From positions 1-31,495 of the IMG/VR virus record IMGVR_UViG_3300046698_000519: 31,495 nt of DNA, one strand, 5' to 3'. This stretch comes from a virus. A program made the position numbers and the translations under genes. The notes under the pieces are model-generated. The model was not told the DNA's origin, ran no database searches, and saw only the letters and a list, made by a program, of their open reading frames with translations. Shown here one piece after another: positions 2,547-29,080 of the stretch (its first letter is position 1; every line of letters starts with the position of its first letter).

Positions 2547-3245
2547 TCATTTCACTTTGGGCCACAGCTTGAAGTGCGCTTCGATCAATGTGATCGCCGC
2601 CTCATATTCAATAGCGTGCGTATTGTCTTTATGTCTAATTTTCAGTTTTGCTCTGAAGTCGGCAACTGATCCAAAGAAACAACCCGTGCGCAGCCGAATG
2701 CCTTTGTCAGTGAGATGGGCAACGAAATATCGTGCCGCCGAACCGAGTCCGCCAAGCTGAAAGATGGGGCGCTCGCACTTTGAAATTTTCGATCCGTCGT
2801 CGAGGCTTGCTCCGTCGAGGCGTGCTCCGACGAGGCTTGCTCCGTCGAGGCGTGCTCCGTCGAGGCGTGCTCCGTCGAGGCGTGCTCCGACGAGGCTTGC
2901 TCCGTCGAGGCGTGCTCCGACGAGGCTTGCTCCGACGAGGCTTGCTCCGACGAGGCTTGCTCCGACGAGGCTTGCTCCGTCGAGGCTTGCTCCGTCGAGG
3001 CGTGCTCCGACGAGGCTTGCTCCGTCGAGGCGTGCTCCGACGAGGCTTGCTCCGTCGAGGCGTGCTCCGTCGAGGCTTGCTCCGTCGAGGCTTGCTCCGT
3101 CGAGGCTTGCTCCGACGAGGCGTGCTCCGTCGAGGCGTGCTCGCGCTTTGACAGCCGCTTCGACTGTCAGCTTGATAGTATTTTTTTCGGCGTCGTGCTC
3201 AAAGAGCACGCCGCCGGTGCACCAGTGTTTGATTTCGATTTTCAT
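2547..3245 (-). CDS. Pentapeptide-repeat protein
   Basis: A 232-residue protein in three parts: an N-terminal β-region (residues 1-35, MKIEIKHWCTGGVLFEHDAE), 23 uninterrupted A(S/R)L(D/V)G pentapeptides (about 36-150), and a C-terminal region (151-232) with LGGLGSAARYF and RTGCFFGSVADF. The flanks match a recurrent phage family in which a right-handed β-helix sits between short domains. Pentapeptide proteins can mimic DNA (e.g. MfpA/Qnr on gyrase), but these repeats lack the usual aromatic ladder, so the partner is unknown. The start ATG is at 3243-3245, downstream of an A-rich leader with no Shine-Dalgarno. The DNA repeats are nearly identical, unlike most such genes, which points to recent expansion. 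Confidence 0.85.
   Translation of the reverse strand: MKIEIKHWCTGGVLFEHDAEKNTIKLTVEAAVKARARLDGARLVGASLDGASLDGASLDGARLDGASLVGARLDGASLVGARLDGASLDGASLVGASLVGASLVGASLVGARLDGASLVGARLDGARLDGARLDGASLVGARLDGASLDDGSKISKCERPIFQLGGLGSAARYFVAHLTDKGIRLRTGCFFGSVADFRAKLKIRHKDNTHAIEYEAAITLIEAHFKLWPKVK
2796..3140. repeat. 23 tandem 15-bp units (minisatellite in pentapeptide gene)
   Basis: Plus-strand units read CGAGGC(T/G)TGCTCCG(T/A). Only two positions vary, each with two states: one selects Ser or Arg, the other Asp or Val. By protein order I count nine Arg-Asp, eight Ser-Val, five Ser-Asp and one Arg-Val units. The unit length equals five codons, so gain or loss of units keeps the frame. The opposite strand is also open in two frames across the array. 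Confidence 0.95.
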
Positions 3246-10960: not shown

Positions 10961-11605
10961 ATGAAAAAAATCACGACCCTTATCCTCATCGCGGCGGCCG
11001 CTTTGCTTCTGCTTACTGCCGTCAACGCCAACGCGCAAACCGACACCAACACGCCAACGCCACCCACGGTCAACGGGTTGATCAGCACGTTCGGCTCGTG
11101 GATCGGAACGTACAACACCAACCTGTCGTTCCAGGACATCATTATTTGGGACGGGCCGGTTTACGAAAACCAGGTCAACATCGGAAATGAACTTGGCGCC
11201 AGCTACGACGTTTGGCGGCAAACCATCAGCACCAACAACACCGGCCTCGCCAGTGTGGGGAACAAGCTCGGCGGCCAGATGTTTCTCGGCCTGGAAGCGC
11301 GAATCCGCCAGGCCAGCGTGGCCGGTGCGCGCGTCAGCGAAGCCGGCGGTCTTGAGTTTGGCTGGATGAAGTACGACTTCCGCGCCGGCGTTTTTGCCGA
11401 TGGCGTTTACCTGGATCATCCGTCCGTCGTCGGCGTTACCGGCCATGAGCAGGCTGAGTTCGGCATCTTCGCGGAGAAGATGTTATCGCCATCAAGCGCG
11501 CTGGGGATGTTCATCTCGGAACAAACGGGCCAGAAATTCCCAATCATCGGGGCGAACCTCAATGTGAGTTTCGGCAACGGGACGGGGTTTCTCGGACTGT
11601 TTTAA
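10961..11605 (+). CDS. Exported protein, possible outer-membrane type
   Basis: A 214-residue protein with a clear Sec signal: MKKITTLILIAAAALLLLTA, with likely cleavage after VNANA (about residue 25). The mature part is rich in Asn, Gly and Thr and has alternating strands. It ends in a terminal Phe (NGTGFLGLF), the ending expected for an outer-membrane β-barrel recognised by the BAM complex. No family is recognised. It is the first gene of the late operon, next to the lipase. It may alter the cell surface (lysis, exclusion or receptor blocking); all are inferred. The ATG at 10961 was chosen over upstream frames because it gives the signal peptide. Confidence 0.6.
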   Translation: MKKITTLILIAAAALLLLTAVNANAQTDTNTPTPPTVNGLISTFGSWIGTYNTNLSFQDIIIWDGPVYENQVNIGNELGASYDVWRQTISTNNTGLASVGNKLGGQMFLGLEARIRQASVAGARVSEAGGLEFGWMKYDFRAGVFADGVYLDHPSVVGVTGHEQAEFGIFAEKMLSPSSALGMFISEQTGQKFPIIGANLNVSFGNGTGFLGLF

Positions 11606-11619
11606 CATTGGAACTGGAA

Positions 11620-11640
11620 CTGCCGGCAAGATGCCGGCAG
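11620..11640. repeat. Perfect hairpin before the lipase gene
   Basis: CTGCCGGCA and TGCCGGCAG form a nine-base GC-rich stem with an AGA loop, between the exported protein's stop and the preferred lipase ATG. No T-run follows, so a terminator is unlikely. It could modulate translation or be a mobile palindrome. Confidence 0.7.
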
Positions 11641-11649
11641 CACGTTAAA

Positions 11650-12486
11650 ATGCTTTCGCTTGATCCAACTCAGACCGGGTTCACCTGGGCGAACGCGCGG
11701 GCGTGCGCGGAGCGGTGCGCGGCGGCGTATGCTTATACGGATCGGAGCATCCAGGAGAGTGGGGTTAATGGCCGCGTTGTCACCAACGCGGCTACGGACA
11801 CCGAGGCGCTGGTGATCGCGGAAGGTAATTGCATCAGCATCGCTTTTCGCGGTTCGTGTAATTTGCGCGACTGGATTCAAGATTTCAAAGCCCGGATCGA
11901 ACATCCGCGCATCAGGCTGGTCGCCTACGACGGCCGGGCGGCGGAGATACACCAGGGCTTCATGGAAGACGTGGACAGCATTACCGTGGATTTGATCGCC
12001 GCCCTCTGTGATATTGGAGCGCCGGCTTCCAGCACGGCGGCGGGTTCAGGTCGTGCCGTGCTGGAGGCCGGCGTTCCAATCTTTGTAACTGGTCACTCCA
12101 AGGGCGGAGGTGAGGCCATTGACTTTGCGCTCGAACTCCAGCGCCAAGGCCTCCCGATTGCCGGAGTTTACACCTTCGGCCAGCCGCGTGTGGGGAACCG
12201 CGCCTTCGCCAATCTGTACGATGAGACGCTCTACGAGGAAACTTATCGAATCGTAAACCAGAACGATATTGTGCCGCGACTGCCCGGCGCGCTGACAGGC
12301 TACAAACATTGCGGGCAGGAAATGTTCCTGCCCGTCGGCGGCGGCTGGTGTGAGAACCCATCCCTGGCCGAATTGCTGCTCTCGGACGCACTCGGGCTGT
12401 GGGGCGCGTACCGGCACGAGACGGACGTGCTCGTGGCTGACCATCTCATCTCCGCTTACCAAACCCGCATCCAACTTCTCACATGA
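11650..12486 (+). CDS. Class 3 lipase-like α/β hydrolase
   Basis: A 278-residue protein matching the class 3 (fungal-type) lipase core: AFRGSCNLRDWIQDF (about 65-79), nucleophile elbow GHSKGG with Ser150, TFGQPRVGNRAF (175-187), acid NQNDIVPRLPG with Asp206, and a likely catalytic His at ADHLISAY (His265). The triad is complete. It lacks a signal peptide, so it would act in the cytoplasm or leave with a holin. It sits where a lysis cassette is expected, upstream of small membrane proteins, and may attack membrane lipids during lysis. The ATG at 11650 is preferred; an upstream TTG (11608) would read through the hairpin. The end overlaps the next start (ATGA). Confidence 0.8.
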   Translation: MLSLDPTQTGFTWANARACAERCAAAYAYTDRSIQESGVNGRVVTNAATDTEALVIAEGNCISIAFRGSCNLRDWIQDFKARIEHPRIRLVAYDGRAAEIHQGFMEDVDSITVDLIAALCDIGAPASSTAAGSGRAVLEAGVPIFVTGHSKGGGEAIDFALELQRQGLPIAGVYTFGQPRVGNRAFANLYDETLYEETYRIVNQNDIVPRLPGALTGYKHCGQEMFLPVGGGWCENPSLAELLLSDALGLWGAYRHETDVLVADHLISAYQTRIQLLT

Positions 12487-15464: not shown

Positions 15465-17802
15465 ACCGATTTTAGAACGGGTTGGGGATGCCTTCCATGC
15501 CTTGGCCGGGAAATCCGTCGACTCGCCGGACGTGGCCGCCTTCCTCACCGGCACCGATATTGACGACCAGCAGCAGGGCACCAAGCTGGTGAATCCCTAC
15601 GCCCAGTCGGCCTGGATTTTTACGGCCGTCTCCATCCTGGCATCGTCCATCGCTCAGATACCGTTCCGCATTTCCCGCGCCGGCGCGGACAAGGCCAAAC
15701 GCATCCGGGCGCTTCGTGGCTCGGCCAATCCGTTGCATCGCAACTTTTGCCGCCGCGCCCTCGGCAACGACATCATTGATTCCGGCGATGTGGTGGACTT
15801 GTTCAACCGTCCGCACCCGACGATGGACCGCCAATTGTTCTGGGAAATGGTTGTAACCTGGAACGCGCTGCGCGGTGAATTTTTCATTCTGCCGCTCGAC
15901 AACGCCGACCAGCCGGTGGATCTGTCGGATCGTAAACCGCGCATCCAGCGGATGCTCACGCTCGACACGACTTTGTTCTGGCACATGGTCCAGGGTTACA
16001 GTCTTGAAGCCTGGCGTTACACTGGCTCACCACTGCTCACGCCGCTGCCATCGGAAATCCTGATGCCGTCGGAACTGATCCACTCGCGCACACCAAACCC
16101 GTATCTCTACTGGCGCGGACTCTCGCCGCTCATTGTGGCGGGCACTCCGGCGCAAACGGATTTTGCCGGTGAACAATTTCAGAAAGGTCTTTGGGTGAAC
16201 AACGCCGACACCGGCGTCATTGTAACCACGGACCAGCAGGCCACGACCGAGCAACGCGCGGCCATCCTGGCCGCGTTGCGCGAGCGCAAACGCAAGGCCG
16301 GCACCGCCGACCGCCCGCTCTTCCTGTGGGGCGGCGCCAAGATTGAGAAGCCGACGCTCTCCATGATGGACATGCAGTTCCTGGACACGCGCAAATTTTT
16401 GCGCAAGGAAATCTTCGCCATCTTCAAGGTGCCGGAAACGCTGGCCGGTTTCACCGAAGACCTCAACGACGGCGGCAAGGGCGGCTCGATGGACGCGCAG
16501 AAAATCTCCTTCATCGAATCCACGCTCGGCAGTCTCTGCACGAGGCTGGAATCCGCCGTCGAGCCGGTGGTAAAAACTTTCGGCGACGATCTCATCGGCT
16601 GGTTCGACGTGGATAGCCTGCCCATCATGCAGGCCGCGCGCCGCGCCCGGTGGGACACCGCTGGAAAAATGTTCGCCATCGGCGTGCCGCTCAACGACGT
16701 CAACGAGAACCTTGACCTGGGGCTGCCGGAATACAAATGGGGCAAGGACAGTTACCTGCCATTCAACCTGCAAAACGTTTCGCAGCCGGTCGAGCCGCCG
16801 CCTGGTGAGGAAGACCCCAATAACCCGCCGCCGACTGACGACGCTGAAAAGTCCACGCCCTTCAGCAAAATGTTGAAGTGGCTCGGCAGCGTGAAGGCCG
16901 ACCCGGCGCCGGTCAAGGTGAAGAAGCCCGACACGACTGTGCTCTGGAACTCGCACGTCGCCTCGCGGCGCAAGACGGTCAAGCTCCTGCAGGCCAAGGT
17001 CGGCAAGGAGTTGAACCAGTTCCGCGCCAGCACCCTGGCCAAACTCAGCGAAATCCATCTCGAAAAGTATCTGGTCCCCGCTGATACGCAAAATCGCCGG
17101 GCGGCCGTCATGCTGCAAACCCGCAGCCTGGTGGATTTGATTTTCAGCCATTCAGCTTTCGGCGAGGCGCTCGCCGCTGAACTGACCAACCCGATCCTGG
17201 CCACACTCAATCTGGCCGGCGCAGAACTCAACGCCGAACTTGGGCATGACGATCCCTGGCAATACCCGCCCAAGCAGGCGAAGGAATATCTGCTGTCCCG
17301 CACTCAACCCATCATGGGTGTGGGCGGCACGGTGCGCGACCAGCTCAACACGTCGCTGGATCAGGGACTCGACGCCGGAGAAACCTCCGCGCAACTCGCC
17401 GACCGCGTCAAAGCCGTGTTCAACGATCTCACCAGCGGCGAAGCCAGGCGCGTGGCGCAGACGGAAACAAACATGGCCTACAATCACGCGCGGCATCTGG
17501 CCATGACTGAGGCCGGCATCCAATACAAAGCCTGGCTCTCCAGCCACGGCCCGCACGTCCGCGAGGCGCACGCCCAGGCCGAGGAAGATTATATCGACGA
17601 GCCGATCCCCGTGACCGATCCGTTTGAAGTTGGCGGTGAGCAACTCATGTATCCCGGCGATGATTCCCTGGGCGCCAGCGCCGGCAATATCATCAACTGC
17701 CAGTGCATCCAGCTCGCCGCGCAGAAAACCGGCGAGGATGAGGAAACGCTCACCTTCAAAATCTACGGCGTCGGTGAACTCATGTTCTACAAGAAATCAT
17801 GA
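15457..17802 (+). CDS. Portal fused to MuF-type head morphogenesis protein
   Basis: A 781-residue fusion. Residues 1 to about 430 are an HK97-type portal (NPYAQSAWIFTAVSILASSI near the start, and NDGGKGGSMDAQKISFIEST). A Pro-rich linker follows (around PPPGEEDPNNPPPTDD), then a C-terminal MuF (Mu gp30-like) region with RRVAQTETNMAYNHARH and a late NIINCQC. The portal is the DNA channel of the capsid; MuF proteins aid head assembly and may enter the host with the DNA. In Mu these are two genes. GTG at 15457 is preferred because GGAGG lies at 15446-15450 with ideal spacing; an ATG at 15430 is nine codons upstream. The stop overlaps the protease ATG (ATGA). Confidence 0.85.
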   Translation: MPKPILERVGDAFHALAGKSVDSPDVAAFLTGTDIDDQQQGTKLVNPYAQSAWIFTAVSILASSIAQIPFRISRAGADKAKRIRALRGSANPLHRNFCRRALGNDIIDSGDVVDLFNRPHPTMDRQLFWEMVVTWNALRGEFFILPLDNADQPVDLSDRKPRIQRMLTLDTTLFWHMVQGYSLEAWRYTGSPLLTPLPSEILMPSELIHSRTPNPYLYWRGLSPLIVAGTPAQTDFAGEQFQKGLWVNNADTGVIVTTDQQATTEQRAAILAALRERKRKAGTADRPLFLWGGAKIEKPTLSMMDMQFLDTRKFLRKEIFAIFKVPETLAGFTEDLNDGGKGGSMDAQKISFIESTLGSLCTRLESAVEPVVKTFGDDLIGWFDVDSLPIMQAARRARWDTAGKMFAIGVPLNDVNENLDLGLPEYKWGKDSYLPFNLQNVSQPVEPPPGEEDPNNPPPTDDAEKSTPFSKMLKWLGSVKADPAPVKVKKPDTTVLWNSHVASRRKTVKLLQAKVGKELNQFRASTLAKLSEIHLEKYLVPADTQNRRAAVMLQTRSLVDLIFSHSAFGEALAAELTNPILATLNLAGAELNAELGHDDPWQYPPKQAKEYLLSRTQPIMGVGGTVRDQLNTSLDQGLDAGETSAQLADRVKAVFNDLTSGEARRVAQTETNMAYNHARHLAMTEAGIQYKAWLSSHGPHVREAHAQAEEDYIDEPIPVTDPFEVGGEQLMYPGDDSLGASAGNIINCQCIQLAAQKTGEDEETLTFKIYGVGELMFYKKS

Positions 17803-18500
17803 AAACACTTGAACAACTCCAAAAAGAATTCGGCGCGCGACTGGTGAAACTGAACACCGGCGCGGATGGACTGCGCGGCGGCCTCCACTTCACTGTCAAG
17901 GAAGTTGCTGGCGCGGCGGCGCAGATGGATTTCATCGGCAGCGATGGCTCTGTGGACCGCTATAACGAGGTCATTGACCACGCCGCCTGGGGTGATATGA
18001 AAAACTTTCGAGCCAACCCGGTTATTCCCGACTGCCACGATTATTCGAGCATTGGGAAAATTCTGGGCCGGGCCGTGAGCGTTGAAGTCAAGGACGGCAA
18101 GCTTTGCAACCGCGTTGAATTTTGCCTGGACAATCCGATGGGCGCGCTCGCTTTTAAAATGGCGAAGGGCGGTTTCCTCAATTCGCAGAGCGTCGGCTTC
18201 ATCCCGGAAGACTGGCAGTCCGGTGAAGCCGCCGGTGAACCGGACCGCACCTACACCAAATGTGAACTGCTCGAAATCAGCATGGTTGTGGTCCCCGCCA
18301 ATCCCGGCGCGACCGTCGGTCTGGCTTTGAAATCCGGCGCGATTGAACGCGCCGACCTGAAGGCTGTTGCTGAATACTTGAAACAATTTTGCGGTGAAGA
18401 GGCAGACCCCAGCACCCAGGCCGGCGCGTCCGGTGCGGGAATCTTTGACGCGCGTTTGCTGCAACTCGCCAGGGGGCTGCGTGATGTCCTCAAAAATTAA
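17799..18500 (+). CDS. HK97-type prohead protease
   Basis: A 233-residue serine protease of the U35/HK97 type. Likely catalytic His80 lies in DCHDYSSIGK and Ser131 in LNSQSVGF, with the family's acidic β-strand context (EISMVVVPANPGA). It would cleave the scaffold-like N-terminus of the capsid protein during maturation, then itself. In Mu the protease belongs to a different family with a scaffold fusion, so this part of the head module is of HK97 style. It precedes the capsid gene, as usual. Confidence 0.85.
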   Translation: MKTLEQLQKEFGARLVKLNTGADGLRGGLHFTVKEVAGAAAQMDFIGSDGSVDRYNEVIDHAAWGDMKNFRANPVIPDCHDYSSIGKILGRAVSVEVKDGKLCNRVEFCLDNPMGALAFKMAKGGFLNSQSVGFIPEDWQSGEAAGEPDRTYTKCELLEISMVVVPANPGATVGLALKSGAIERADLKAVAEYLKQFCGEEADPSTQAGASGAGIFDARLLQLARGLRDVLKN

Positions 18501-18520: not shown

Positions 18521-20008
18521 ATGACCATGAAAAAAATTCTGAAACCGTATCGGCACCTGACCGCCTTGCTGGCCGTCGGCGTGTTCGCCATTGCGCTCTG
18601 TGCGCTTCACCTCATTCCGGCTGCTGGCTGCCTGTTTATCATTGGCGCCTGGCAACTCCTGCAATTCGCCCAGTCCAGGCGTTGCGGCATGTGCTTCACC
18701 ACCGCGCTCACGCCCGAACAGATCAAGGAATTCGAGGGCATCCTCGACGGCTTCAAGGGTTACAACAGCATGTTCAAGGAACTCGCTGACGTGGCCAAGA
18801 TCGAAGGCGGCTTTGCCGCCATCAAGAAACTGCCCGATCTGTTCAAGGCGATGGGCGAGGACCACGACAAGGTTAAAGCCGACCTCAAGAAACTCCGCAA
18901 GCAGTCCATGTTGCGCGAGGGTGATACAGGTGTGCGTTATATTGGCAACAAGCCTTTCGTGACCGACAGTTGCGCGCTCGCTCTGGCCGGCATGTACCTC
19001 GCCTGCGCCATGCGCCAGGACAAATGGGACACCAAGAAACACGGCGATGCCCAGACCATGCTGGCCAGGGCCGCTGAATGGATCGGCATCGAGAAGGCCG
19101 CGCTCGCCAGCACGGACATCCCGCTGCCCACGATCTACGTTCCGCAGATCATCGAGTTGGTTTACAAGTACGGCCAGTTCCGCCAGTTCGCCACGGTGTT
19201 CCCCCTGGGCGCCGGCACGGTGAACCTGCCTCAGTTGAAATCCGGCGAAGATGCATTCACCTTCCTGGGTGTCGGCACCGCCGGCATGAGCCAATCGCTG
19301 GGCGAAAAGAAAGTCGCCGCGCAGAATGTCACCTTCACCGCCAACAAATGCGGCGGCATCATCCGCATCCCGTCCGAAATCGAGGAGGACACGTTCATCC
19401 CGTTCGGCCAGTTTGTGGCGCGCTACATCTCCCGCCGGTTCGCCAACCTGGAAGACCAGACCGGCTTCCTCGGCGACGGCACCGGGACCTACGCGAACAT
19501 CAAGGGCGTCGGCCCCTACATTGCCGGTGTGGCGCAAACCCCGCAGCTCGTGCAGCTCGGCGCGGGCAAGACCAAACCCACCGACGCGACCATCAATGAC
19601 TTCCGCGCCATGCGCGCCAAGGTCAATGCGGCCGTGCTGCAAACGGGCAATGCGGCTTATTACCTAAACTCCACGATGGAGGCGTTGCTCGTGACGTTCA
19701 ACACGATCAATAACCCCTACATCTACGTCCGGCAGAATGGTTCGCAGCCGGCCACGCTGGATGGCTTCCCGATCCATTGGGTCGGCGTCATGCAGCCTTA
19801 CGCCACGGTGGCGGCCGCCGCCACTTACCTGGCGTTCTTCGGCGACCTTTCCTACTGGTATCTCGGCGAACGCGGCACGCCGCGCGTCGAGACCAGCCGC
19901 GAGGTTTACTTCGTCACTGACGAAATCGGGATGCGCGCCATTGAGCGTATCGATGTCGAGGCGCTCGCGCCCGACGCCATGACGGCCCTGCAAACCGCCG
20001 CCCAATAA
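18521..20008 (+). CDS. Major capsid protein, HK97 fold, with N-terminal membrane segments
   Basis: A 495-residue capsid protein. The C-terminal two thirds show the HK97-type pattern (PQIIELVYKYGQFRQFATV, IRIPSEIEEDTFIPF, FLGDGTGTYANIKG, and the late YLGERGTPRVETSREVYF). Residues about 60-150 are helical, charged and Δ-domain-like. Before them are two hydrophobic stretches (about 13-30 and 31-49) after a basic MKKILKPYRH start. This is odd for a capsid protein and suggests membrane insertion of the precursor. The start could instead be ATG at 18689, which would drop the segment, but no ribosome site precedes it; ATG 18521 or 18527 follows an AACCATCAAC-type leader. The protease upstream could remove the N-terminus. 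Confidence 0.85.
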   Translation: MTMKKILKPYRHLTALLAVGVFAIALCALHLIPAAGCLFIIGAWQLLQFAQSRRCGMCFTTALTPEQIKEFEGILDGFKGYNSMFKELADVAKIEGGFAAIKKLPDLFKAMGEDHDKVKADLKKLRKQSMLREGDTGVRYIGNKPFVTDSCALALAGMYLACAMRQDKWDTKKHGDAQTMLARAAEWIGIEKAALASTDIPLPTIYVPQIIELVYKYGQFRQFATVFPLGAGTVNLPQLKSGEDAFTFLGVGTAGMSQSLGEKKVAAQNVTFTANKCGGIIRIPSEIEEDTFIPFGQFVARYISRRFANLEDQTGFLGDGTGTYANIKGVGPYIAGVAQTPQLVQLGAGKTKPTDATINDFRAMRAKVNAAVLQTGNAAYYLNSTMEALLVTFNTINNPYIYVRQNGSQPATLDGFPIHWVGVMQPYATVAAAATYLAFFGDLSYWYLGERGTPRVETSREVYFVTDEIGMRAIERIDVEALAPDAMTALQTAAQ

Positions 20009-20084: not shown

Positions 20085-20726
20085 ATGAAAAAAATTCTTT
20101 ACACCGCAGTGGTTGGCCTCGCCGTTTCCGTCGCAGCGTTCGCGGCGTTGCCCACCTATAAAACCGTCTCCGCCGTCGGCAATGCCGTCGCGCCGGCCAC
20201 CGCATACTTCCCGTTTGACGCGAACTCCCAGGTCCGCGTCATCTACGCGAATTACAACACGGACACGAATAATTCCTCGCTGTCCTTTGCCACGGGCGTG
20301 ACGCCCTTCTATGTCACCACCACAAACCAGGCGACCAGCTCTGTCACCAATCTGCTCAACAGCACGAACGGGTTGAGCACCTCGGCGGTCCTTGTGCTCC
20401 AGCATAATGGCACCTGCTATTCCAGCACGGTGGCAAGCTGGTTTAGCAATACCAACGCCGCGCCTTATGGCGGCACGGGTGTCGTGCTGGCCTCCGGCGG
20501 TTGGGGCGTCGCCACGTCGGTCGGCGATGAAGTGGAATTGATGTCATCGGCCACAACGATTCCCGCACCGGCCGCCAGCAGTGGAACCACCACCACTGCG
20601 GCCGTCCTCGGGGATGCGGTATTCGTCGGAAATTATGGGCGCATCGTTTCAGTCACCATCACCCCGGCGCTGGTGACCAACAAGCTCAACTCGGTGAGCG
20701 CCCACTACGACAGCCAATCGCAATAG
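20085..20726 (+). CDS. Exported virion-associated protein, possible capsid decoration
   Basis: A 213-residue protein with a clear signal peptide (MKKILYTAVVGLAVSVAAFA, cleavage about residue 20), then a Ser/Thr/Asn-rich β-structured body. It follows the capsid gene directly, where phages commonly encode the decoration (cement) protein, so that is the best guess by position. A Sec signal is unexpected for a protein that must reach a cytoplasmic capsid. Either it is not a virion part, or assembly is at the membrane. No family is recognised. ATG at 20085 shares its first codons with the capsid gene. Confidence 0.65.
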   Translation: MKKILYTAVVGLAVSVAAFAALPTYKTVSAVGNAVAPATAYFPFDANSQVRVIYANYNTDTNNSSLSFATGVTPFYVTTTNQATSSVTNLLNSTNGLSTSAVLVLQHNGTCYSSTVASWFSNTNAAPYGGTGVVLASGGWGVATSVGDEVELMSSATTIPAPAASSGTTTTAAVLGDAVFVGNYGRIVSVTITPALVTNKLNSVSAHYDSQSQ

Positions 20727-20735
20727 AAATTCGCC

Positions 20736-20933
20736 ATGTTTAATCAGCCGCCACAGGATCGGATGCTCAGACCGCGTGATGCTAACACGCGCGATGAACG
20801 CGCTGTACCCGCAGTGCTGCATCCTGTGGCGGCTTCTCCCCGCCGCGCCACGACTGCTGAAATCATCGGGCGCGATCCGCGTCTCACCAACATCGTCGCC
20901 GGACGCGACGGCATCATTCACCTGGAATCATGA
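20736..20933 (+). CDS. Small hypothetical protein (65 aa)
   Basis: The product (starts MFNQPPQDRMLRPRD) is Arg/Pro-rich and probably poorly folded, with a short end (EIIGRDPRLTNIVAGRDG). It lies between the possible decoration gene and the connector, and its stop overlaps the next ATG (ATGA). No domain is recognised; a small head or connector accessory is possible. Confidence 0.55.
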   Translation: MFNQPPQDRMLRPRDANTRDERAVPAVLHPVAASPRRATTAEIIGRDPRLTNIVAGRDGIIHLES

Positions 20934-21577
20934 ACACCGGCTTATCTAATCTCGATTTTCTGCGTTCACAAATCCTGGCCTCCAGCCAGGCCGGTGATGA
21001 TTCGTTTGACGCCAAGCTCACGGCCGTCGGCCTGGGCGTGGCCGCCGCCTTCGAGAATTATTGCAACCGCAAATTCACCCGCCTGGTCGGCGTCCAGGAA
21101 ATCATCCCCGCCGACCGCTGCCAGTTTTTGCTGTCGCGCTATCCGCTCGAAGTTCTGACCGCCGTGGATTTGAAAGTGAAAGAGTCGGATGGATGGGTGT
21201 CTCAGGACCTGGGCAACATTCTGTCCATTGACCTCGCCAACGGCATCGTCAACTTCACGGAATGCGGCGATGTCGGTCCCTGGTATGCGCAGGTCCGCTT
21301 CACTTTTACGGCCGGGTTTTTCTGGAACACACTCGAACCGGCGGACACCGGCTATCCTACCGCGCAACCAGACGGGTCGGCGGCGCTCCCGCCCGATCTG
21401 CTCGATGCCTGGCTGCTCCAGGTGCGCAAGGAATGGGAGGCCATTGACAAGCTCGGCACCAAGATCACCGATGTCGGCAGCAACACGCGCAACGCCTCCG
21501 AATCGCTGGCCGGCCTGGACTTCGTTCCCCGCGTGAAGGACATGCTGAATCAGTTCGTCCGTTATAACCTGGTATGA
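20930..21577 (+). CDS. Head-tail connector (gp6-like adaptor)
   Basis: A 215-residue protein with the layout of phage gp6/HK97 connectors. An N-terminal helical part includes AAAFENYCNRKFTR, then comes a strand-rich block (YPLEVLTAVDLKV) and a C-terminal helical part with LPPDLLDAWLLQV. Such proteins bind the portal ring and stop DNA leaking before tail joining. The location right after head genes fits. The ATG overlaps the previous stop (ATGA). Confidence 0.7.
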   Translation: MNTGLSNLDFLRSQILASSQAGDDSFDAKLTAVGLGVAAAFENYCNRKFTRLVGVQEIIPADRCQFLLSRYPLEVLTAVDLKVKESDGWVSQDLGNILSIDLANGIVNFTECGDVGPWYAQVRFTFTAGFFWNTLEPADTGYPTAQPDGSAALPPDLLDAWLLQVRKEWEAIDKLGTKITDVGSNTRNASESLAGLDFVPRVKDMLNQFVRYNLV

Positions 21578-22128
21578 GCGCCGACTATTCCATCGAAATT
21601 TCCGGCGATGCCCTGGAGAAAATCCCGCTGTTGCGGGACCAGGCCGGCATCGCCCGCGCGCTCGCCCGCACCACGGACTGCGAGAACCAGCTCACCGTCG
21701 CCTTCATCCAGGAGAACTATTTAAGCTTCCCCAAGGACGGCCCGGTCCAGGAGACCGGCTTGCGCGTCATCTCCAATCGCCTGCGCGGCAGCATTCGCGC
21801 CACGCCCGCCGAGATCACCGCCGATGGCGTCACCTCCAGCATCGGCTCGAACGTCCGCTACGCCGCGATCCACGAGTTCGGTTTCGACGGCAATGAACAG
21901 GTCAGCGCGCACGTCCGGCGCCGGTCCTCCGTCCAGAGCTTTCGTTTCGGCCAGCGCCTGGTCCACCGTAAGGTGCGCGGCGCGGACATCGAGGTGCGCG
22001 GCTTCACCCGCCACATGGTCATGCCCGCGCGCCGGCCCATTGGCCGGGGTATCGAGGAGCGTCTGCCTGCCTACGCGGCGGCGTTTGAAAACTGCATCAC
22101 CAAATTCTGGAACAAGGAGAACCCGTGA
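21574..22128 (+). CDS. Virion morphogenesis/tail completion protein (gpG-like)
   Basis: A 184-residue protein. LRGSIRATPAEITADGVTSS followed by SNVRYAAIHEFG is typical of the phage virion morphogenesis (Phage_tail_S/gpG) and HK97 gp10 families, and the PARRPIGRGIEE stretch recalls their C-terminal PARPF-like end. It would act at the neck, joining head and tail. The gene starts with an ATGA overlap and ends overlapping the next GTG. Confidence 0.7.
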   Translation: MSADYSIEISGDALEKIPLLRDQAGIARALARTTDCENQLTVAFIQENYLSFPKDGPVQETGLRVISNRLRGSIRATPAEITADGVTSSIGSNVRYAAIHEFGFDGNEQVSAHVRRRSSVQSFRFGQRLVHRKVRGADIEVRGFTRHMVMPARRPIGRGIEERLPAYAAAFENCITKFWNKENP

Positions 22129-22877
22129 GCATCAATCTCCTGGATGTCATTGACCGTCTGCCGACCGAGGACGCCGCCCGGCTGGCCAGCGATCCATTCT
22201 TCTCGGACATCCCCGTCATCGTGGCCGACAAGGGCAACGTCAGCGCCGAGGTCGCGCGCGCCCAGGGCATCGTCACCATGAAGTCGGGCAAGCGCGGCGT
22301 GTGCGTCGTGGTCCTCCAACTCGTCGGCGACGATCTGAACCCGAACATCCCCTTCGGGCCGATGCGTCTCTACCCGGCGTTCCAGGTCATTGAGCAGGTC
22401 GAGATGAACAACGACAAAAACGGCACCACGAAATCCGCGCGCCGGGTTGCCCGCCAGATCGTCAAGCTCATCAAAACGCTGCGCCTGGTCGGCGTCGCCA
22501 ATTCGCAGACGCCGGACAAACCCTGCATTGAGCCGATCCGGTTCAAGGATGCCGACGACAAACTGATCGGCTACCAGGTGAACTTTTATTGCGACGAGTC
22601 GGATTCGGAAACCGTCCTGAAAGTCGCCAATCCCGTCTTCGCCCCACCCGGCGGCGCCTCGGCCACGGTCACGCTCACCTGCGCCACAGCCGGCGCGGCC
22701 ATCTGGTATACCACCGACGATACGGCGCCTGATCCGGGCGTGCTCCCCGGCTCGACCGCGAATCTTTATACCGCGCCAATTAACGTGCCGCCTGCCGGCG
22801 TCACGATCCGCGCCTGCGCTTACCTGGCCGGCTCGGTCGCCTCGGACATTGAACGCTTTGCTTTTACCGCACCATGA
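22125..22877 (+). CDS. Tail terminator-like protein fused to a chitobiase C-terminal-type domain
   Basis: A 250-residue protein. The N-terminal half (about 1-165) is in the position of gp37/tail-terminator proteins and has their size. Residues about 171-250 (VFAPPGGASATVTLTC, then AAIWYTTDDTAPDPG) match the CHB_HEX_C_1 domain, a β-sandwich seen at the C-terminus of surface hydrolases and carbohydrate-binding proteins. A terminator carrying such a domain would display it at the tail-head junction, perhaps for surface binding. GTG at 22125 has AAGGAG upstream and overlaps the previous stop. Confidence 0.65.
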   Translation: MSINLLDVIDRLPTEDAARLASDPFFSDIPVIVADKGNVSAEVARAQGIVTMKSGKRGVCVVVLQLVGDDLNPNIPFGPMRLYPAFQVIEQVEMNNDKNGTTKSARRVARQIVKLIKTLRLVGVANSQTPDKPCIEPIRFKDADDKLIGYQVNFYCDESDSETVLKVANPVFAPPGGASATVTLTCATAGAAIWYTTDDTAPDPGVLPGSTANLYTAPINVPPAGVTIRACAYLAGSVASDIERFAFTAP

Positions 22878-22917
22878 CCCATGAACCTCAACACTCAACG
22901 CTCAACCAACAACCAAT

Positions 22918-23880
22918 ATGAATAGAGACTCCATCATCATCGGCGCGGCGCGGTTCGTTTTCAATGCACCCGCCGGCGCAGCCACGTTCTACACGCCGCA
23001 CGAAAACATCACCAAGCTCCCGCTCAAGCCGCAGACATTCAAGGTCGCGGCGGAAGGCGTGCCCATCATGTCCACGCGCCTCAAAGACATGGCGCCCATC
23101 ATTGACGTGACGCCGGACGGCCGTTGGAACGCCGCCATCATCGCCGCGCTCTGGCCTTTTGCCCAGGCGGCCAAGAACCAGCGCATCTTCACCAACACGG
23201 ATCGCACGCTGCTGGCGCACACCCAGGAGAGCCATTTGCTCACCTGCGCCTCGGTGGCGCTTTACAAACAGCCGCAGATTAATTTCAGCCCGGTCAAGTC
23301 GCTCATCGGCCCGGCGCAGATTGCCTTGCTGCGCTCCAACGGCGTGGCCTGGGACACCACCAACTCGCTGCTCACCTACGCCACCAGCGGCGGCACGTTT
23401 GTGGACACCACCTTCGCGGCCTCGTCCATCAAGACGCAGACCTACCTCGGCAATTGGGGCACCAAGACCGGGTTCACCAGCATTGAGACGTTTGAGGATT
23501 CGGGTTTCGTGTTCACGCCCATCCTCTCGCTCAAGCCCGTCCTGCTCACCGGCGCGCGCACCAACAACTACATGGTTACGGAGATTGGCGCGCAGGTCAG
23601 CTTCCGTCCCGCCAACGCGGCCCAGGCGGACATGCTCTCGGCGCTGGCCTTCCAGGGCACCGGCTGTTTGCCGGGCACGGAACTCGGCCAGGGCGGCGGC
23701 GCGGACTTCACCATCACCGGCGCGGACGGCATCAATTATTGCATCGTTAAAAATGCCGTGGCGCAGGAAGGCGGCTTTGCCTTCGGCGGCGAACCGCGCA
23801 ACGACATGATGAGTTTCGTGTCGCAGCCGATTCTGGCTTCCGGCGTGTTCGGCCCGGCCTTCGTCCTGGCCGCGTCATAA
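22918..23880 (+). CDS. Major tail (tube) protein, siphovirus type
   Basis: A 320-residue β-rich protein, soluble and without a signal peptide, next to the tail terminator and upstream of the tape measure. Its size and position fit the major tail tube protein. No tail sheath gene lies beside it, as a Mu-type contractile tail would need, so a non-contractile tail is likely. ATG at 22918 follows a leader with repeated CAAC words and no Shine-Dalgarno. No family-specific motif is recognised, so the call rests on place and general features. Confidence 0.6.
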   Translation: MNRDSIIIGAARFVFNAPAGAATFYTPHENITKLPLKPQTFKVAAEGVPIMSTRLKDMAPIIDVTPDGRWNAAIIAALWPFAQAAKNQRIFTNTDRTLLAHTQESHLLTCASVALYKQPQINFSPVKSLIGPAQIALLRSNGVAWDTTNSLLTYATSGGTFVDTTFAASSIKTQTYLGNWGTKTGFTSIETFEDSGFVFTPILSLKPVLLTGARTNNYMVTEIGAQVSFRPANAAQADMLSALAFQGTGCLPGTELGQGGGADFTITGADGINYCIVKNAVAQEGGFAFGGEPRNDMMSFVSQPILASGVFGPAFVLAAS

Positions 23881-23912
23881 CTCTCAACCATCAACACTCA
23901 ACTAAAAAACCT

Positions 23913-24104
23913 ATGCCTGAAGAAATTGACAAAACAATTCTAACGCCCGCGACCGCCAAGGAGGTGCTCGCCGGCATTGAACCCCTCCTCAAGAAACTTG
24001 AGGGTCTCACCGGCCACGCCGTGAACATCCGCTACAAGCTGGAAGCGGCGCGCGACCTCGCCGGCACCGCCGCAAAATCGGCAATCGTAAATCGGCAATC
24101 GTAA
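23913..24104 (+). CDS. Small helical tail-region protein (63 aa)
   Basis: The product (MPEEIDKTILTPATAKEVLA) is helical. It lies where tail assembly chaperones usually sit between tube and tape measure, but no slippery sequence or frameshifted partner was found. Its last residues (AIVNRQS) and its stop are encoded inside a tandem 14-base duplication (24075-24102), so the C-terminus may be recently extended or truncated. Confidence 0.5.
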   Translation: MPEEIDKTILTPATAKEVLAGIEPLLKKLEGLTGHAVNIRYKLEAARDLAGTAAKSAIVNRQS

Positions 24105-24106
24105 AT
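24075..24106. repeat. Tandem 14-bp repeat at a gene end
   Basis: AAATCGGCAATCGT occurs twice in direct tandem (24075-24088 and 24089-24102), followed by a partial third copy (AAAT). The stop codon of the preceding gene lies in the repeat. The next gene starts four bases later. Confidence 0.85.
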
Positions 24107-24109
24107 AGG

Positions 24110-24553
24110 ATGATCCGGTTCACCTATATCCCGGATGCGCCCGCGCAGCCCATCGTGCTCTCGCAAACGAGCCGCGACTGGATGGAGTGTGACGTGCGGT
24201 TGAATCACCGCCGCATTCACCAGGCGGCGGATTTCTTCCGCGCGCCGTATGGAAGTGGATTCGACCGGGGCAACTGGCGGAACGTGCTTTCGTTCCGCAC
24301 CTGGCGCGGCGTGGATACCAGCGGCGTGAACTTTGTGGATGCCGAGGCGGCGCTGCTGCAACTGCTGGATCACCCGCAATCGTTGCCGGCGCATGGCACA
24401 CTCAAAATTGACGTGATTGGCGCACTCACCAACGCCACGCGCTACCTGCTTGACTGCATGCCGCAGGTCATTGAGGTGCGCGACGACGTGGGCGTGACGC
24501 TTGCCTGGCAATACACCTTCACCGGCGGCGCCCTGGGAGTTTCATCATCATGA
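24110..24553 (+). CDS. Hypothetical tail protein (147 aa)
   Basis: A soluble 147-residue protein with WMECDVRLNHRRIHQAADFF and a later SFRTWRGVDTSGVNFVDAEA. No family is recognised. It is in the tail module and its end overlaps the next start (ATGA). It may be a minor tail or tail-assembly protein; the position is the only guide. Confidence 0.55.
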   Translation: MIRFTYIPDAPAQPIVLSQTSRDWMECDVRLNHRRIHQAADFFRAPYGSGFDRGNWRNVLSFRTWRGVDTSGVNFVDAEAALLQLLDHPQSLPAHGTLKIDVIGALTNATRYLLDCMPQVIEVRDDVGVTLAWQYTFTGGALGVSSS

Positions 24554-25482
24554 GCCAATTCACAAAAATCGTAGTGCGCTGCGCGGTGGACGTCACCAGC
24601 CGCGATCCCTTCAAGGATGTCTTCACCGGGTCCGTGCCCAAGGTCTGGTACGGCGTGGGCGTGGAATTTCAGCTCGCCTTCTTCAAAGGCACCGGCCCCT
24701 CCGCCGCGCTCCTGGATATATCCGACTTTAACCTGGTCAAGGCGCTCATCACTTCCGCGTCCACCAGCAACACCGCCCTGGTGGACCAGCTTGCCACCAC
24801 GCTCGACACCGGCCTGACCCTCGATGAATGGAACTCCGGCGTGAGCGCGCGCACCGGCTTCGAGCGCGCCGCGCACGCCATCATTGACTTCGAGGGTTCG
24901 CAATTGCAGTTCGACCTGGCCGGCGGCGCTTCCAAGGATTTCTGGCTCACCATTCACGGCGCGACCACGGATGACCTGGCCGATCCCGATTGCTTCGGCT
25001 GCACGACGTTCACGATCCTTGCCGATTCATTGCCGCCCGTCGTTGGTCCGTTGGCTGGCGCAAATCTCATCCCGCAAAACGCCGTCTACGATGGCAGCAG
25101 CCATTACACGCTGGCAACGGCCGTCGGCCAGGGCTTGCGTTGGACCAAAGGCGCGAACGATACCAGCGTCACCAACACCGGCGAGACGGTGAACACCAAC
25201 AATGCCGTCTTCTGGGCGCAGGCCGCCACCATCGTCCTCAACGGGACCGCCGGCCAGCCCGTGACGGCCTTCATCTGGTATCCGCCGGCCTTGACTGCCG
25301 ATGAAGTCTTGGCCCTGTTCAATTCCGCTGTCGTCTCGCGCAACGTCACTTCCGGCACCGGCTCGCCGAACGGCGTGGTGACCGGATCGCCCGGCGACCT
25401 TTTCTCACAAATCGAAAACAACGCCCTCGTCCGGCTCTGGACCAAAACCTCCGGCGTGGCAACCAACACAGGATGGACATGA
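24550..25482 (+). CDS. Hypothetical virion protein (310 aa)
   Basis: A 310-residue protein with an N-terminal β-region (VVRCAVDVTSRDPFKDVFTG) and a Gly/Thr/Asn-rich C-terminal half resembling tail-fibre-like or phage structural proteins. No signal peptide. No specific family is recognised. It overlaps both neighbours by short junctions, ending at the start of the next gene. Confidence 0.55.
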   Translation: MSQFTKIVVRCAVDVTSRDPFKDVFTGSVPKVWYGVGVEFQLAFFKGTGPSAALLDISDFNLVKALITSASTSNTALVDQLATTLDTGLTLDEWNSGVSARTGFERAAHAIIDFEGSQLQFDLAGGASKDFWLTIHGATTDDLADPDCFGCTTFTILADSLPPVVGPLAGANLIPQNAVYDGSSHYTLATAVGQGLRWTKGANDTSVTNTGETVNTNNAVFWAQAATIVLNGTAGQPVTAFIWYPPALTADEVLALFNSAVVSRNVTSGTGSPNGVVTGSPGDLFSQIENNALVRLWTKTSGVATNTGWT

Positions 25483-27101
25483 AAACCAAACTCTTTTTTA
25501 GCCTTCAGCTTTTAGCCTTCAGCCTTTGCGCGAGCGCCTGGCAGCTCAGTGGCTGGCCGTCATCGGACTTTGTCGGCACCAACTGGAACAAGGCCACCAA
25601 CGCCGCGCAGCAGCGCGCCTTGCTCGGCCTGGACTCGGCGTCCACCAATCCCGCCAGCGCGTTCGACACCAATGGCGCGGCGTTCTATTGGGCCAATTTC
25701 CAGAGCAACAAGATTGTGGTCGTCATCGTGCCGCCGATGATTGGCGCGTTGAGCAATTGGGTCACCGCCAACTTCGTCGGGACCAATCCGGTCGGCACGG
25801 CCGTATTCAACGGTCAGACCAATGCCGTGAGCCTGCAAAATCCATCCAACTCATTCGCCGGAAATCATACCGGGAATTTTTATGGGCCGCTCTTTGGCGA
25901 TGCCACCAATGCCGACCACGCAAACCTGGCCGACCACGCCAGCGTTGCCGACTACACCAGCGTGGCCGGGTTGGTCGTCCAGTCGAACACGATTGTCATC
26001 ACAGATAATTGTTCCGGCGACGCGGGCGGCAACTACAACGCCGGCTTCTATACCGGACGCATCAGCAATCATTCCAGCCAGACTGTCACCAACGTGCCGG
26101 CTTTCATCTTGAACAATGGGAACACCCACGTGATTTATTACGGCCCGTTTCTGGGCACACTTCGCGCCTCGTCAAATGCCGGGCCGGTTTGGGTGATGGT
26201 GGACCTGTCACTGACTTCGGTGGCGACCAATTCTTCGCCGGTCGGAACTTTTGTCGGCGTCGGCCTGGGAGGTGGAATGTGCTCTTCGTACTCCAGCACC
26301 TACCTCACGGTGCCAGCGTTGACTGACCCGACCGCCTTCGATACGAACGGCGCGGCAGTGGCGGCTGAAGCGATTCTGGTTTCACAATTCTTCGAGTCGA
26401 ACACGATCCCCGCACAAACCGCGCCCTGGGTGACTAGCTTCGTGACCCAGTACTGGTTCACCAATGGCACATCTGGCTCCGCCGTCAGCTCGACCTATTA
26501 TGGTTTTTATAATTACGACGCGCCGCTCTCCACCAATGGCGCGTTGGTCTATACCAACGGCAGCGAGTACCTGGTTTATAACGATCCCAATTGGAGTAAT
26601 GCCTACGGCGACAACATATGGGACCTGGGTGTAAATTATCCCGACACCGGCTACGCCAATTACGCCACGGGCGGCGGTGGCACCGTGGACGGCACCTGGT
26701 TCGCGTCATCGCCGCCCTATGGTGCGCAGCTCAATCTCATTGGCGCTGCCAATGTCACGACCTACACGACAAACTTCATCACCTACAACGGCAAGGGCGC
26801 GACCAACCTGCAATCGGGCAACCTGGTCGGCCCAATCCCTCAAGCCTTGCTGCCGGCCCTGATCTACACTGGCACGACAAATATCCCCGCTACGTCGAAC
26901 ACGCTCACGATTGTTATCGGCGGTCATGTGATGCCGTCCACGAATTACGTGCCGGGCGTCGTGGTTTTCGGCCCGGCGCTGGCCGTCACCAACTTCGTCA
27001 CGTTCACCAGTTGCACGCTCTCGAACTTCGTCGCCAACTTCACCGCCCCGGTCGAGAGCGCCAAAACAAACCTCGGCTGGTCGGTCTTGTTCGCGCCATG
27101 A
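25479..27101 (+). CDS. Large exported tail-module protein (540 aa)
   Basis: The start is taken as ATG at 25479, which overlaps the previous stop as ATGA; ATG 25473 is in frame too. The product begins with a signal peptide (MKTKLFFSLQLLAFSLCASA, likely cleaved after CASA), encoded partly by a dispersed repeat. The body is Asn/Thr/Gly/Tyr-rich and β-structured, like phage fibre or host surface proteins. Functions of this sort include receptor binding or surface display, but a Sec signal is unexpected for a virion protein. Family unknown. Confidence 0.6.
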   Translation: MKTKLFFSLQLLAFSLCASAWQLSGWPSSDFVGTNWNKATNAAQQRALLGLDSASTNPASAFDTNGAAFYWANFQSNKIVVVIVPPMIGALSNWVTANFVGTNPVGTAVFNGQTNAVSLQNPSNSFAGNHTGNFYGPLFGDATNADHANLADHASVADYTSVAGLVVQSNTIVITDNCSGDAGGNYNAGFYTGRISNHSSQTVTNVPAFILNNGNTHVIYYGPFLGTLRASSNAGPVWVMVDLSLTSVATNSSPVGTFVGVGLGGGMCSSYSSTYLTVPALTDPTAFDTNGAAVAAEAILVSQFFESNTIPAQTAPWVTSFVTQYWFTNGTSGSAVSSTYYGFYNYDAPLSTNGALVYTNGSEYLVYNDPNWSNAYGDNIWDLGVNYPDTGYANYATGGGGTVDGTWFASSPPYGAQLNLIGAANVTTYTTNFITYNGKGATNLQSGNLVGPIPQALLPALIYTGTTNIPATSNTLTIVIGGHVMPSTNYVPGVVVFGPALAVTNFVTFTSCTLSNFVANFTAPVESAKTNLGWSVLFAP

Positions 27102-27622
27102 TGCGTTTCTGGACCATCGTCTTTTTGATTGCGACTCTTTGCTTTGCGCTCGGCGGGTGCCTGCTTTGCATTGGCAGCCAGGTCACGCTCGCCTGGAACC
27201 GTTCCACTGAACCCATCGTCGCCGGCTACAATGTTTATTACGGTGGCAAAAGCGGTGCTTACACCAACGAGGTTAGCGCCGGCGCTGACACCAACATCAC
27301 TATCAATGGCCTGGTCGACGGCTCGATTTATTATTTCGCGGCCACCGCCTACAGCGCAGCGGGCGTCGAGAGTCCCTTTTCCGCCGAAGTGGTTTATCGC
27401 ATGCCGCTCTACACGCCGCCAAAAACAAACCATGTCATCCAGGTGACGGCCCGCTTGGTCCAGATCACCACTGCTACCAACCTGGCCGGCCCGTGGTTGG
27501 TCTCCACAAACTTTCGCCTTCAGCCTTCAGCCTTTAGCATTGCCACGCTCACCAATCCACCCGCGCCCATGTGCTTCTGGACCGGCGTCGTGGTCCTGGA
27601 TATCACGCAAACGAATTTCTGA
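27098..27622 (+). CDS. FN3-domain protein with lipoprotein-type signal
   Basis: A 174-residue protein beginning MMRFWTIVFLIATLCFALGG, followed by Cys21: LGGC is a lipobox, so it may be a lipoprotein. Residues about 28-105 are a fibronectin type III domain (VTLAWNRSTEPIVAGYNVYY, later YYFAATAYSAAGVESPFS), common in surface and tail proteins. Its C-terminal part includes a copy of a dispersed short repeat (LQPSAFSIATL). The ATG overlaps the previous stop. It may sit in the outer envelope or in the tail tip; both are inferred. Confidence 0.65.
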   Translation: MMRFWTIVFLIATLCFALGGCLLCIGSQVTLAWNRSTEPIVAGYNVYYGGKSGAYTNEVSAGADTNITINGLVDGSIYYFAATAYSAAGVESPFSAEVVYRMPLYTPPKTNHVIQVTARLVQITTATNLAGPWLVSTNFRLQPSAFSIATLTNPPAPMCFWTGVVVLDITQTNF

Positions 27623-27625
27623 CCC

Positions 27626-29080
27626 ATGCCTGAGCTGAATTACACCATCAAAACCGGCGCCGAACTCGCCGGTGCCCAAGCCGCTGCCGACGCGCTCGAA
27701 CGCCAGATCGGCAAAGCCAGGGCGCTTGGCCAGGATTTCTCTGAGTTACAGCGGCAACATGATCTCGTCACGGAATCAATCAAGAACGCTAAAGTCCCGC
27801 AGGAAGATAATAATGAAGCGATGCGGCAGGGCGGGGTGAGCGCGCGCGGCCTGCATGGCGCTCTCCATCTCATCGCTGCTGAATCCGGTCCGGCAATGGG
27901 CGCGGCAGTCGGCGCGGCTGCCGCTTTGATGACCGGCGGCCTTTTAACTGTGGTGTTCGCGGTGCGCGAATTGTTCAACTGGTTCAAGGAGCTGCAACAA
28001 AAAGCCGAGGAATTCCGTGAGCGCCAGGCTGCGCTCTGGCTGGCGGCGGAAGAGGGCGCGCGGCAGGCCGCCACTGCCGCCCAGGAATTCAACGACAAAC
28101 TGGACGATGAGGCTGAAAAAACAGAAAGCCTGAAAACGAAATTCGGCGATGAAATCAAACTGCTCCATACGCAACTGGCGGCGCACAAACTAATCCTCGA
28201 AGCGATTGAGAAAGAAGAACTGGCCGCCGCCGCTGGTGACAAGGATAAAGAAGCCGCGATCAAGAGCCGCTTCGACCGCCTGAAAAACCAATACGATTTG
28301 GAAGGTGAGCGCCAGAGGATCGCGCTTGAACAGCGGCAACTCGGCGAACTGCAACTGGCCAAATGGGGTGATGACCTGGCCGCCAAAGGTCTCGAAAAAA
28401 TAAAGGAGAACCTCGTCGCGCAAGCACCGCAATTGAAGGCCGCGCTGGATAACGTCACCGAGGAATTCGGCGATCCTAAGAAAATCAAGGCCACCTTTGA
28501 CCAGGCCACCGCGCTGTTGCAAAAAGGATTGTCCACAGGTTCCATGAAAGAATTGCCTGGCGGCGGATTAGAAATAACTGACCTGGCCAAATTCGTCAAT
28601 GGTGGCGGCAGTGAGTATGACCTTTTAAAAATGGGTGGTGCCGGTGGAATTCGCAAGGCGCAGGAAAACTGGGCAAAATACCAGGAGGCCAAGGGCGCGG
28701 TTGACGCCAACGATGCCGGTCTTAGAGAAGTGGATCGCGGCTTGGGAAAAGCCGAGTCGGCGTCAGCGACCGATGGCGGAAGCATTTCCACTCTCACCGC
28801 CAGCATCGCTGAGTTGACTGCGGAACTGAGAGTTCACAGTACCACGGCGGCGCAAAAATCAGTTTTGGACACGAAGGGTGGTAAAGCCGGCGAAGCACTC
28901 GGCCAGTTGGCGGATGAAACTGGAATGTCCTATTCACAAATTGTCGGCCAGGTCACGCGCATCCTTAACCATCAAATGACCGTGCAGCAGGCATTCTCCG
29001 CCTTGGAGCAACGTCAAGCAATTCTGGAGGAGCGGCAAAAACAACTTAATGGTCGCATCCAAGCCAACCAGACGCAATGA
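27626..29080 (+). CDS. Tape measure protein
   Basis: A 484-residue protein: a helical N-terminus, a hydrophobic stretch (about 88-112, AMGAAVGAAAALMTGGLLTV), then long coiled-coil runs (KEEFRERQ-like charge repeats, 120-330). This is the usual tape-measure plan; the protein sets tail length and helps DNA entry. At about 0.15 nm per residue the tail would be roughly 70 nm, short for a siphovirus. Position before the distal tail genes fits. Confidence 0.7.
   Translation: MPELNYTIKTGAELAGAQAAADALERQIGKARALGQDFSELQRQHDLVTESIKNAKVPQEDNNEAMRQGGVSARGLHGALHLIAAESGPAMGAAVGAAAALMTGGLLTVVFAVRELFNWFKELQQKAEEFRERQAALWLAAEEGARQAATAAQEFNDKLDDEAEKTESLKTKFGDEIKLLHTQLAAHKLILEAIEKEELAAAAGDKDKEAAIKSRFDRLKNQYDLEGERQRIALEQRQLGELQLAKWGDDLAAKGLEKIKENLVAQAPQLKAALDNVTEEFGDPKKIKATFDQATALLQKGLSTGSMKELPGGGLEITDLAKFVNGGGSEYDLLKMGGAGGIRKAQENWAKYQEAKGAVDANDAGLREVDRGLGKAESASATDGGSISTLTASIAELTAELRVHSTTAAQKSVLDTKGGKAGEALGQLADETGMSYSQIVGQVTRILNHQMTVQQAFSALEQRQAILEERQKQLNGRIQANQTQ

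Follow-up and report, generated by a model that had tools for sequence, protein, structure and literature searches.

Late genes of a Mu-like phage of Verrucomicrobiota and of its relatives begin with predicted export signals, which are conserved and restricted to genes of appendage type, i.e., a decoration-like protein behind the capsid, fibres, esterases and FN3 proteins. Judging from the sequences, this trait belongs to a whole phage clade and not to one contig alone. Tailed phages are taken to build their virions wholly in the cytoplasm. The sequence-only reading of the same DNA had already seen a conflict with such purely cytoplasmic assembly, and that conflict held up: several late-module proteins look exported, and the structural proteins of lambda, Mu and D3112 were not flagged by the same rule.

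The window, meaning the whole stretch of DNA analysed here, is an entire IMG/VR record of 31,495 bases and represents a Mu-like transposable phage of Verrucomicrobiota. Its minus strand carries the two genes by which such phages were recognised, a MuA-like transposase (PHROG 310, E 6e-7) and a MuB-like ATPase (PHROG 296, E 3e-6), while its plus strand carries lysis genes, terminase, a portal with a Mu F-like domain, an S78 protease and an HK97-type capsid, with further adaptor, neck, tube-like and tape-measure-like genes. Mu and D3112 share with it the MuA/MuB-like genes, the lysis-terminase-portal order and the Mu F-like domain, but their structural proteins are without such signals, and the window differs from them in its S78 protease/HK97-type capsid pair, its lysis-block lipase and its exported-type appendages. 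Also on the minus strand, 23 copies of a 15-bp DNA repeat (2798-3142) encode a pentapeptide-repeat protein (2547-3245). The late genes discussed below, named by their start coordinates, are as follows.

10961-11605, plus strand: exported-type envelope protein of the lysis cassette, predicted cleavage between ANA and QTD, C-terminal F of the kind found in outer-membrane barrels.
17799-18500, plus strand: S78 prohead protease (PF04586, E 7.6e-10).
18521-20008, plus strand: HK97-fold major capsid protein (PF05065, E 7e-32).
20085-20726, plus strand: capsid-adjacent protein, 213 aa, predicted Sec/SPase I signal and all-beta mature domain (from the ORF, its homologues and AlphaFold2).
20736-20933, plus strand: small cytosolic protein (PPQDRMLRP...), from the ORF and a similar stretch in L014 and L009.
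24550-25482, plus strand: tail protein with no signal, ahead of 25473 with a 10-nt overlap.
25473-27101, plus strand: fibre-like protein, 542 aa, predicted Sec/SPase I signal (cleavage between ASA and WQL), positioned as in relatives.
27098-27622, plus strand: FN3 protein, 174 aa, signal with a lipobox-like LGGC and an fn3 domain (PF00041).
27626-29080, plus strand: signal-free tape-measure-like protein (by position and sequence), its gene separated from the FN3 gene by 3 nt.

Relatives of the window phage were taken from IMG/VR and from MAGs; an IMG/VR scan with gene 29084 and a search with the tube alignment returned nothing useful. None of the cultured phages is close, with capsid matches about 24% identical. 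Host hints come from MAGs that contain relatives, two of them Verrucomicrobiota (one subdivision 3) and one labelled Patescibacteria, a label that may be a binning error. Two different prophages of the clade (L042, L026) occur on contigs C225 and C255 of a single Verrucomicrobia subdivision 3 MAG (G009).

Signals were scored by a crude n-h-c rule, for which the annotated late gene sets of phages lambda, Mu and D3112 served as calibration. The starts of 20085, 25473, 27098 and 10961 all run from a charged n-region through a hydrophobic core to a cleavage site, scoring 45.7, 38.4, 53.4 and 57.4, respectively, so that the convincing Sec or lipoprotein signals first reported for 20085, 25473 and 27098 are indeed present at these open reading frames. 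None of the other window late genes put through the rule was flagged apart from the capsid, whose score of 62.1 has a different basis (see below). Residue-shuffled proteins scored at least 38 in 0.24% of cases. Of the 93 late genes from the three calibration phages, four reached that score (lom, Rz, the Mu o-spanin and D3112 orf22), and none of these encodes a known structural protein. In the relatives, all 21 proteins of the 20085 family have a signal, whereas none was seen in the 146 proteins that the same loci contribute to eight core families (portal, protease, adaptor, neck, 22125, tube, tape-measure and hub); these two counts are the unbiased ones, the list of fibres having been partly selected by signal. 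On the shuffled controls and this contrast, we reject chance as the origin of the signals taken together.

A conserved signal marks the 20085 family, whose members adjoin the capsid gene directly on its 3' side. The window protein begins MKKILYTAVVGLAVSVAAFA followed by ALPTY, with residues 1-20 as the signal and the predicted site between AFA and ALP, an n-h-c layout with an A-x-A site that is conserved across homologues as expected of a Sec/SPase I preprotein. Homologues without signals had been named beforehand as the finding that would refute the export reading; the opposite was found, with 15 of the 21 homologues bearing the signal N-terminally and 6 behind a cytosolic domain and TM segment (the 21 include L006, a fragment close to L007). 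After the first set had shown signals throughout, 20 more loci were fetched, and every 20085 homologue in them was again signal-bearing. In the six fused homologues (L013, L024, L028, L030, L033 and L047), a soluble domain of about 85 aa ending in (G)xTWH leads into a TM stretch, behind which come an A-x-A-type site and the mature domain common to the family. A small soluble domain ending in GNTWH(WP) also stands alone behind the capsid at L026:11482-11796 and L057:5400-5672. The A-x-A-type sites persist at 25-30% sequence identity, even in the fused forms, and the dN/dS of 0.3-0.5 of the signal codons indicates purifying selection; this conservation and selection rule out a mis-chosen start codon. 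AlphaFold2 modelled the mature part confidently as an all-beta domain and left residues 1-20 disordered (pLDDT 82), and a fold search found no close solved fold in the PDB. Because the mature domain is unmatched there, we call the protein decoration-like by its position only. The domain had no match in 388 Verrucomicrobiota genomes and therefore appears phage-owned; matches in MAGs lie behind phage capsids, and an origin as a host-derived moron is thus unsupported. By tblastn, no match was found in cultured phages.

The capsid itself poses a separate question. Its hydrophobic start, which had been linked to the export signals, is real, but in place of a cleavable signal, residues 1-56 form a predicted double hydrophobic hairpin (...QLLQFAQSR) that precedes the delta domain and whose end is conserved in the alignment as QLxQxAxSR. 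Where measurable, the hairpin shows a dN/dS of 0.2-0.5, i.e., purifying selection, yet evolves faster than the capsid body. A mis-chosen capsid start is ruled out, as 20 nt separate the protease gene from the hairpin start and capsids that lack the hairpin begin immediately ahead of the delta domain. Judging from HK97-type biology, the hairpin would be located within the prohead and lost together with the delta domain, and the S78 protease is a candidate for removing the capsid N-terminus. About 20 of 28 relatives' capsids carry the hairpin, and six clear cases begin at the delta domain (L010, L012, L025, L042, L054 and L060). In L010, L012, L025 and L054, the hairpin is gone and the 20085 homologue keeps its signal; hairpin and signals are therefore uncoupled, separate traits, and joining them in one story or one system does not survive the comparison. 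In the MAG-derived L042, no 20085 homologue was seen.

Such hydrophobic starts could nonetheless tether proteins to the inner membrane until a phage or host protease frees them, the capsid hairpin and the appendage signals gathering head, neck and fibres at one membrane site. Besides the frequency of the hairpin, this would account for the TM segments that link cytosolic and exported domains in the six fused 20085 homologues and, likewise, for a fusion in L009 and L014, where a stretch like the small cytosolic protein 20736 is joined via a TM segment to exported-type fibre genes. In the window, 20736-20933 stands alone, with a (P)QDRxIKTP...EILG-like motif. We regard membrane-linked assembly as improbable, as all six hairpin-less phages retain signals on other genes where sequence is covered, so that hairpin and signals are not one machine, and as the A-x-A sites favour cleavage over anchoring.

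Beyond the 20085 family, the relatives carry one to three large signal-bearing genes between tube and tape measure, or alternatively downstream of the 20085 homologue (L009, L014) or of the hub (L067, L068, L070), so that both fibre and decoration genes sit in the head and tail blocks. The fibre types comprise YadA-like repeats (L019, L016, L058), a beta-helix-like protein (L014) and FN3 proteins, accompanied by signal-bearing GDSL/SGNH hydrolases in L019, L024 and, with a domain match below the cut-off, L009; the beta-helix, YadA-repeat and 'GDTLPVAFxKxN' fibre-motif labels were read from the sequence, with no database match. The n-h-c rule flagged 28 of 29 fibre-like genes in 17 phage genomes, a list selected by place and signal and thus not an unbiased count. 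Two of the signal-bearing proteins match PHROG families, a 'tail fiber protein' (E 0.0012) and a 'virion structural protein' (E 1e-12); matches to known virion proteins were found for the relatives' fibres and not for 20085 or 25473. In ten signal-bearing fibre genes, a domain of about 100 aa begins at the predicted cleavage site or immediately beside it. Its model (pLDDT 75) has as nearest folds the Bxb1 tail tip (TM 0.63/0.74), the A-1(L) neck fibre and the XM1 neck (PDB 9d93, 8keg, 7kjk), at an identity of 11-18%. On this model, the domain looks like a virion fibre anchor, and the relatives' genes look like virion fibres with an export signal ahead of the part that would hold them to the particle. 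Right-end tail proteins with a Cys/Gly-rich start (MFGGCGCGRN..., KCGCRCAG...) in L019 (2184-3143, minus strand), L071 (3893-4774), L067 and L070 are conserved in place and have no signals.

Proteins with such signals might instead act on the infected cell and not in the virion, coating or trimming its surface late, blocking superinfection and keeping progeny off debris; esterases would strip polysaccharide, and adhesins and lipoproteins would mask receptors. Phage surface lipoproteins such as Cor and Llp are known and fit such an action, as do the export-type signals, the SGNH esterase domains and the lipobox-like FN3 proteins. It also agrees with a suggestion made for Porphyromonas phages (PMC10367356). 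Though action on the cell surface would explain export, the anchor-like domain matches virion tail-tip and neck folds, the genes are located in the tail and head blocks, and L016, L057 and L058 show no other fibre gene within the sequence covered; we therefore consider it rather unlikely.

In the window's own tail block, the 25473 protein begins MDMKTKLFFSLQLLAFSLCASA followed by WQLSG, again an n-h-c layout with an A-x-A site, and a second ATG of its gene at 25479 gives 540 aa. It occupies the same place as the signal-bearing fibre/SGNH genes of relatives and has a short match to the L014 fibre. No homologue was found in IMG/VR scans or by tblastn in cultured phages, and its conservation is one of position and type only. 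It matched neither the fibre anchor domain of the relatives nor, by homology or fold, known virion proteins. Heptanucleotide repeats (TTTTAGC/CTTCAGC type) at 25496-25527 encode the hydrophobic core of its signal; with a repeat-encoded core and neither homologue nor anchor match, a chance origin is possible for 25473. Two other fibre signals (L048:7576, L028:9005) are likewise made of host-type short repeats. These three cases agree with a reading in which the signals are of little function, acquired from host genes or low-complexity repeats, with the proteins made and assembled in the cytoplasm, a reading we hold to be very improbable since 21/21 versus 0/146, recurrence in 17 genomes and purifying selection are hard to get by chance. 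Heptanucleotide repeats also encode a stretch of the FN3 gene (27518-27538) and occur in L008, L010, L011 and L016. Gain or loss of one 7-nt unit would shift the frame, and phase variation at these repeats is therefore possible.

The signal-free 24550 protein is possibly a non-exported fibre; a frameshift fusion of 24550 and 25473 is ruled out, as L013 has a gap and no overlap at that place. Downstream, 27098 starts with MMRFWTIVFLIATLCFALGGC, a hydrophobic stretch with the lipobox-like LGGC and the FN3 domain (E 8.8e-7, residues 27-98) directly behind. LGGC fits a lipobox, whereas the n-h-c rule preferred a later site inside an FN3 strand. Relatives occupy the same place in L019 (LIGC; homologue, E ~1e-9) and L024 (CVGC). 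The gene is tightly packed with its neighbours, overlapping 25473 by 4 nt and ending 3 nt before the tape measure. Repeated spacers (CAACNNTCAACNCTCAAC; AAATCGGCAATCGT) lie directly ahead of tail genes at 22889-22906, 23885-23902 and 24075-24106, and for the first of them the chance expectation is none. No clear Shine-Dalgarno sequences were seen ahead of the listed late genes of the window.

The 10961 protein, which had been counted with the others as the first late gene with a signal, is a case apart. Its signal stands (MKKITTLILIAAAALLLLTAVNANA followed by QTDTN), but it lies in the lysis cassette, upstream of the class-3 lipase, and is an ordinary envelope protein of that cassette, where signals are normal. 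Equivalents in L012 and L013 have a signal and terminal F, and those in L005 and L014 are lipoproteins. In the lysis block (10961-12486 in the window), here and in L005, L012, L013 and L014, a class-3 lipase preceded by an outer-membrane-barrel-like protein or lipoproteins lies where Mu has its endolysin, and the window proteins that were scanned included no recognisable peptidoglycan hydrolase. Many phage lysis proteins are known to be exported by Sec, e.g., spanins, SAR endolysins and Lys44 of fOg44 (PMC6116005). They resemble the proteins described here as late phage proteins that use the host Sec system, but they act in lysis, whereas the window signals sit on head- and tail-block proteins, 10961 alone fitting the lysis class.

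We propose, at just short of an even chance, that the appendage proteins are Sec-exported and join the particles at or after lysis. The outward-facing proteins (20085 along with the fibres, esterases and FN3 proteins, 25473 and 27098 among them) would be synthesised as Sec preproteins and cleaved by signal peptidase I or, in the case of the FN3 protein, II. They would accumulate beyond the cytoplasm, in which heads and tails are meanwhile built; appendages would then join particles once the cell is opened at lysis. Export and cleavage, the virion location of the mature proteins and the timing are thus what we infer, and we prefer export with joining at lysis because it most simply unites the exported look of these proteins with their look of virion appendages. 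Counter to it, some relatives and the window (24550) have signal-free tail proteins, which could be the real receptor binders. Somewhat more tentatively, assembly might be divided between two compartments, with the core head and tail cytoplasmic, the head decoration, neck/tail fibres and esterases Sec-exported and added outside, and an inner-membrane tether on the capsid precursor in most phages of the clade. The earlier idea that these genes serve as envelope cargo found no support.

A partial precedent exists in Porphyromonas gingivalis phages (proposed Nixviridae), for which predicted Sec signals are described on the major capsid and several unknown proteins, removal of the capsid signal being attributed to the prohead protease (PMC10367356). 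These are other phages (tRNA-inserting) of another host phylum, and the passages covered report no fibre or decoration families that are exported and keep their signals, as proposed here (PMC10367356). Nor is the trait general to phages of Verrucomicrobia: in the cultured verrucophage P8625, a tailed phage, no protein has a signal peptide, which rules out a property of all verrucophages (PMC4642752). Absence of signal peptides has even been taken as support for a phage origin of diversified (DGR) proteins (PMC6199706). In the literature searched, which was largely open-access, no description of a tailed phage with exported fibres came up. If the appendage genes described here are truly Sec-targeted, either virions could be finished outside the cytoplasm or exported fibre-like proteins would be kept for the host surface, and in either case the way of recognising fibre genes in uncultured phages would change.
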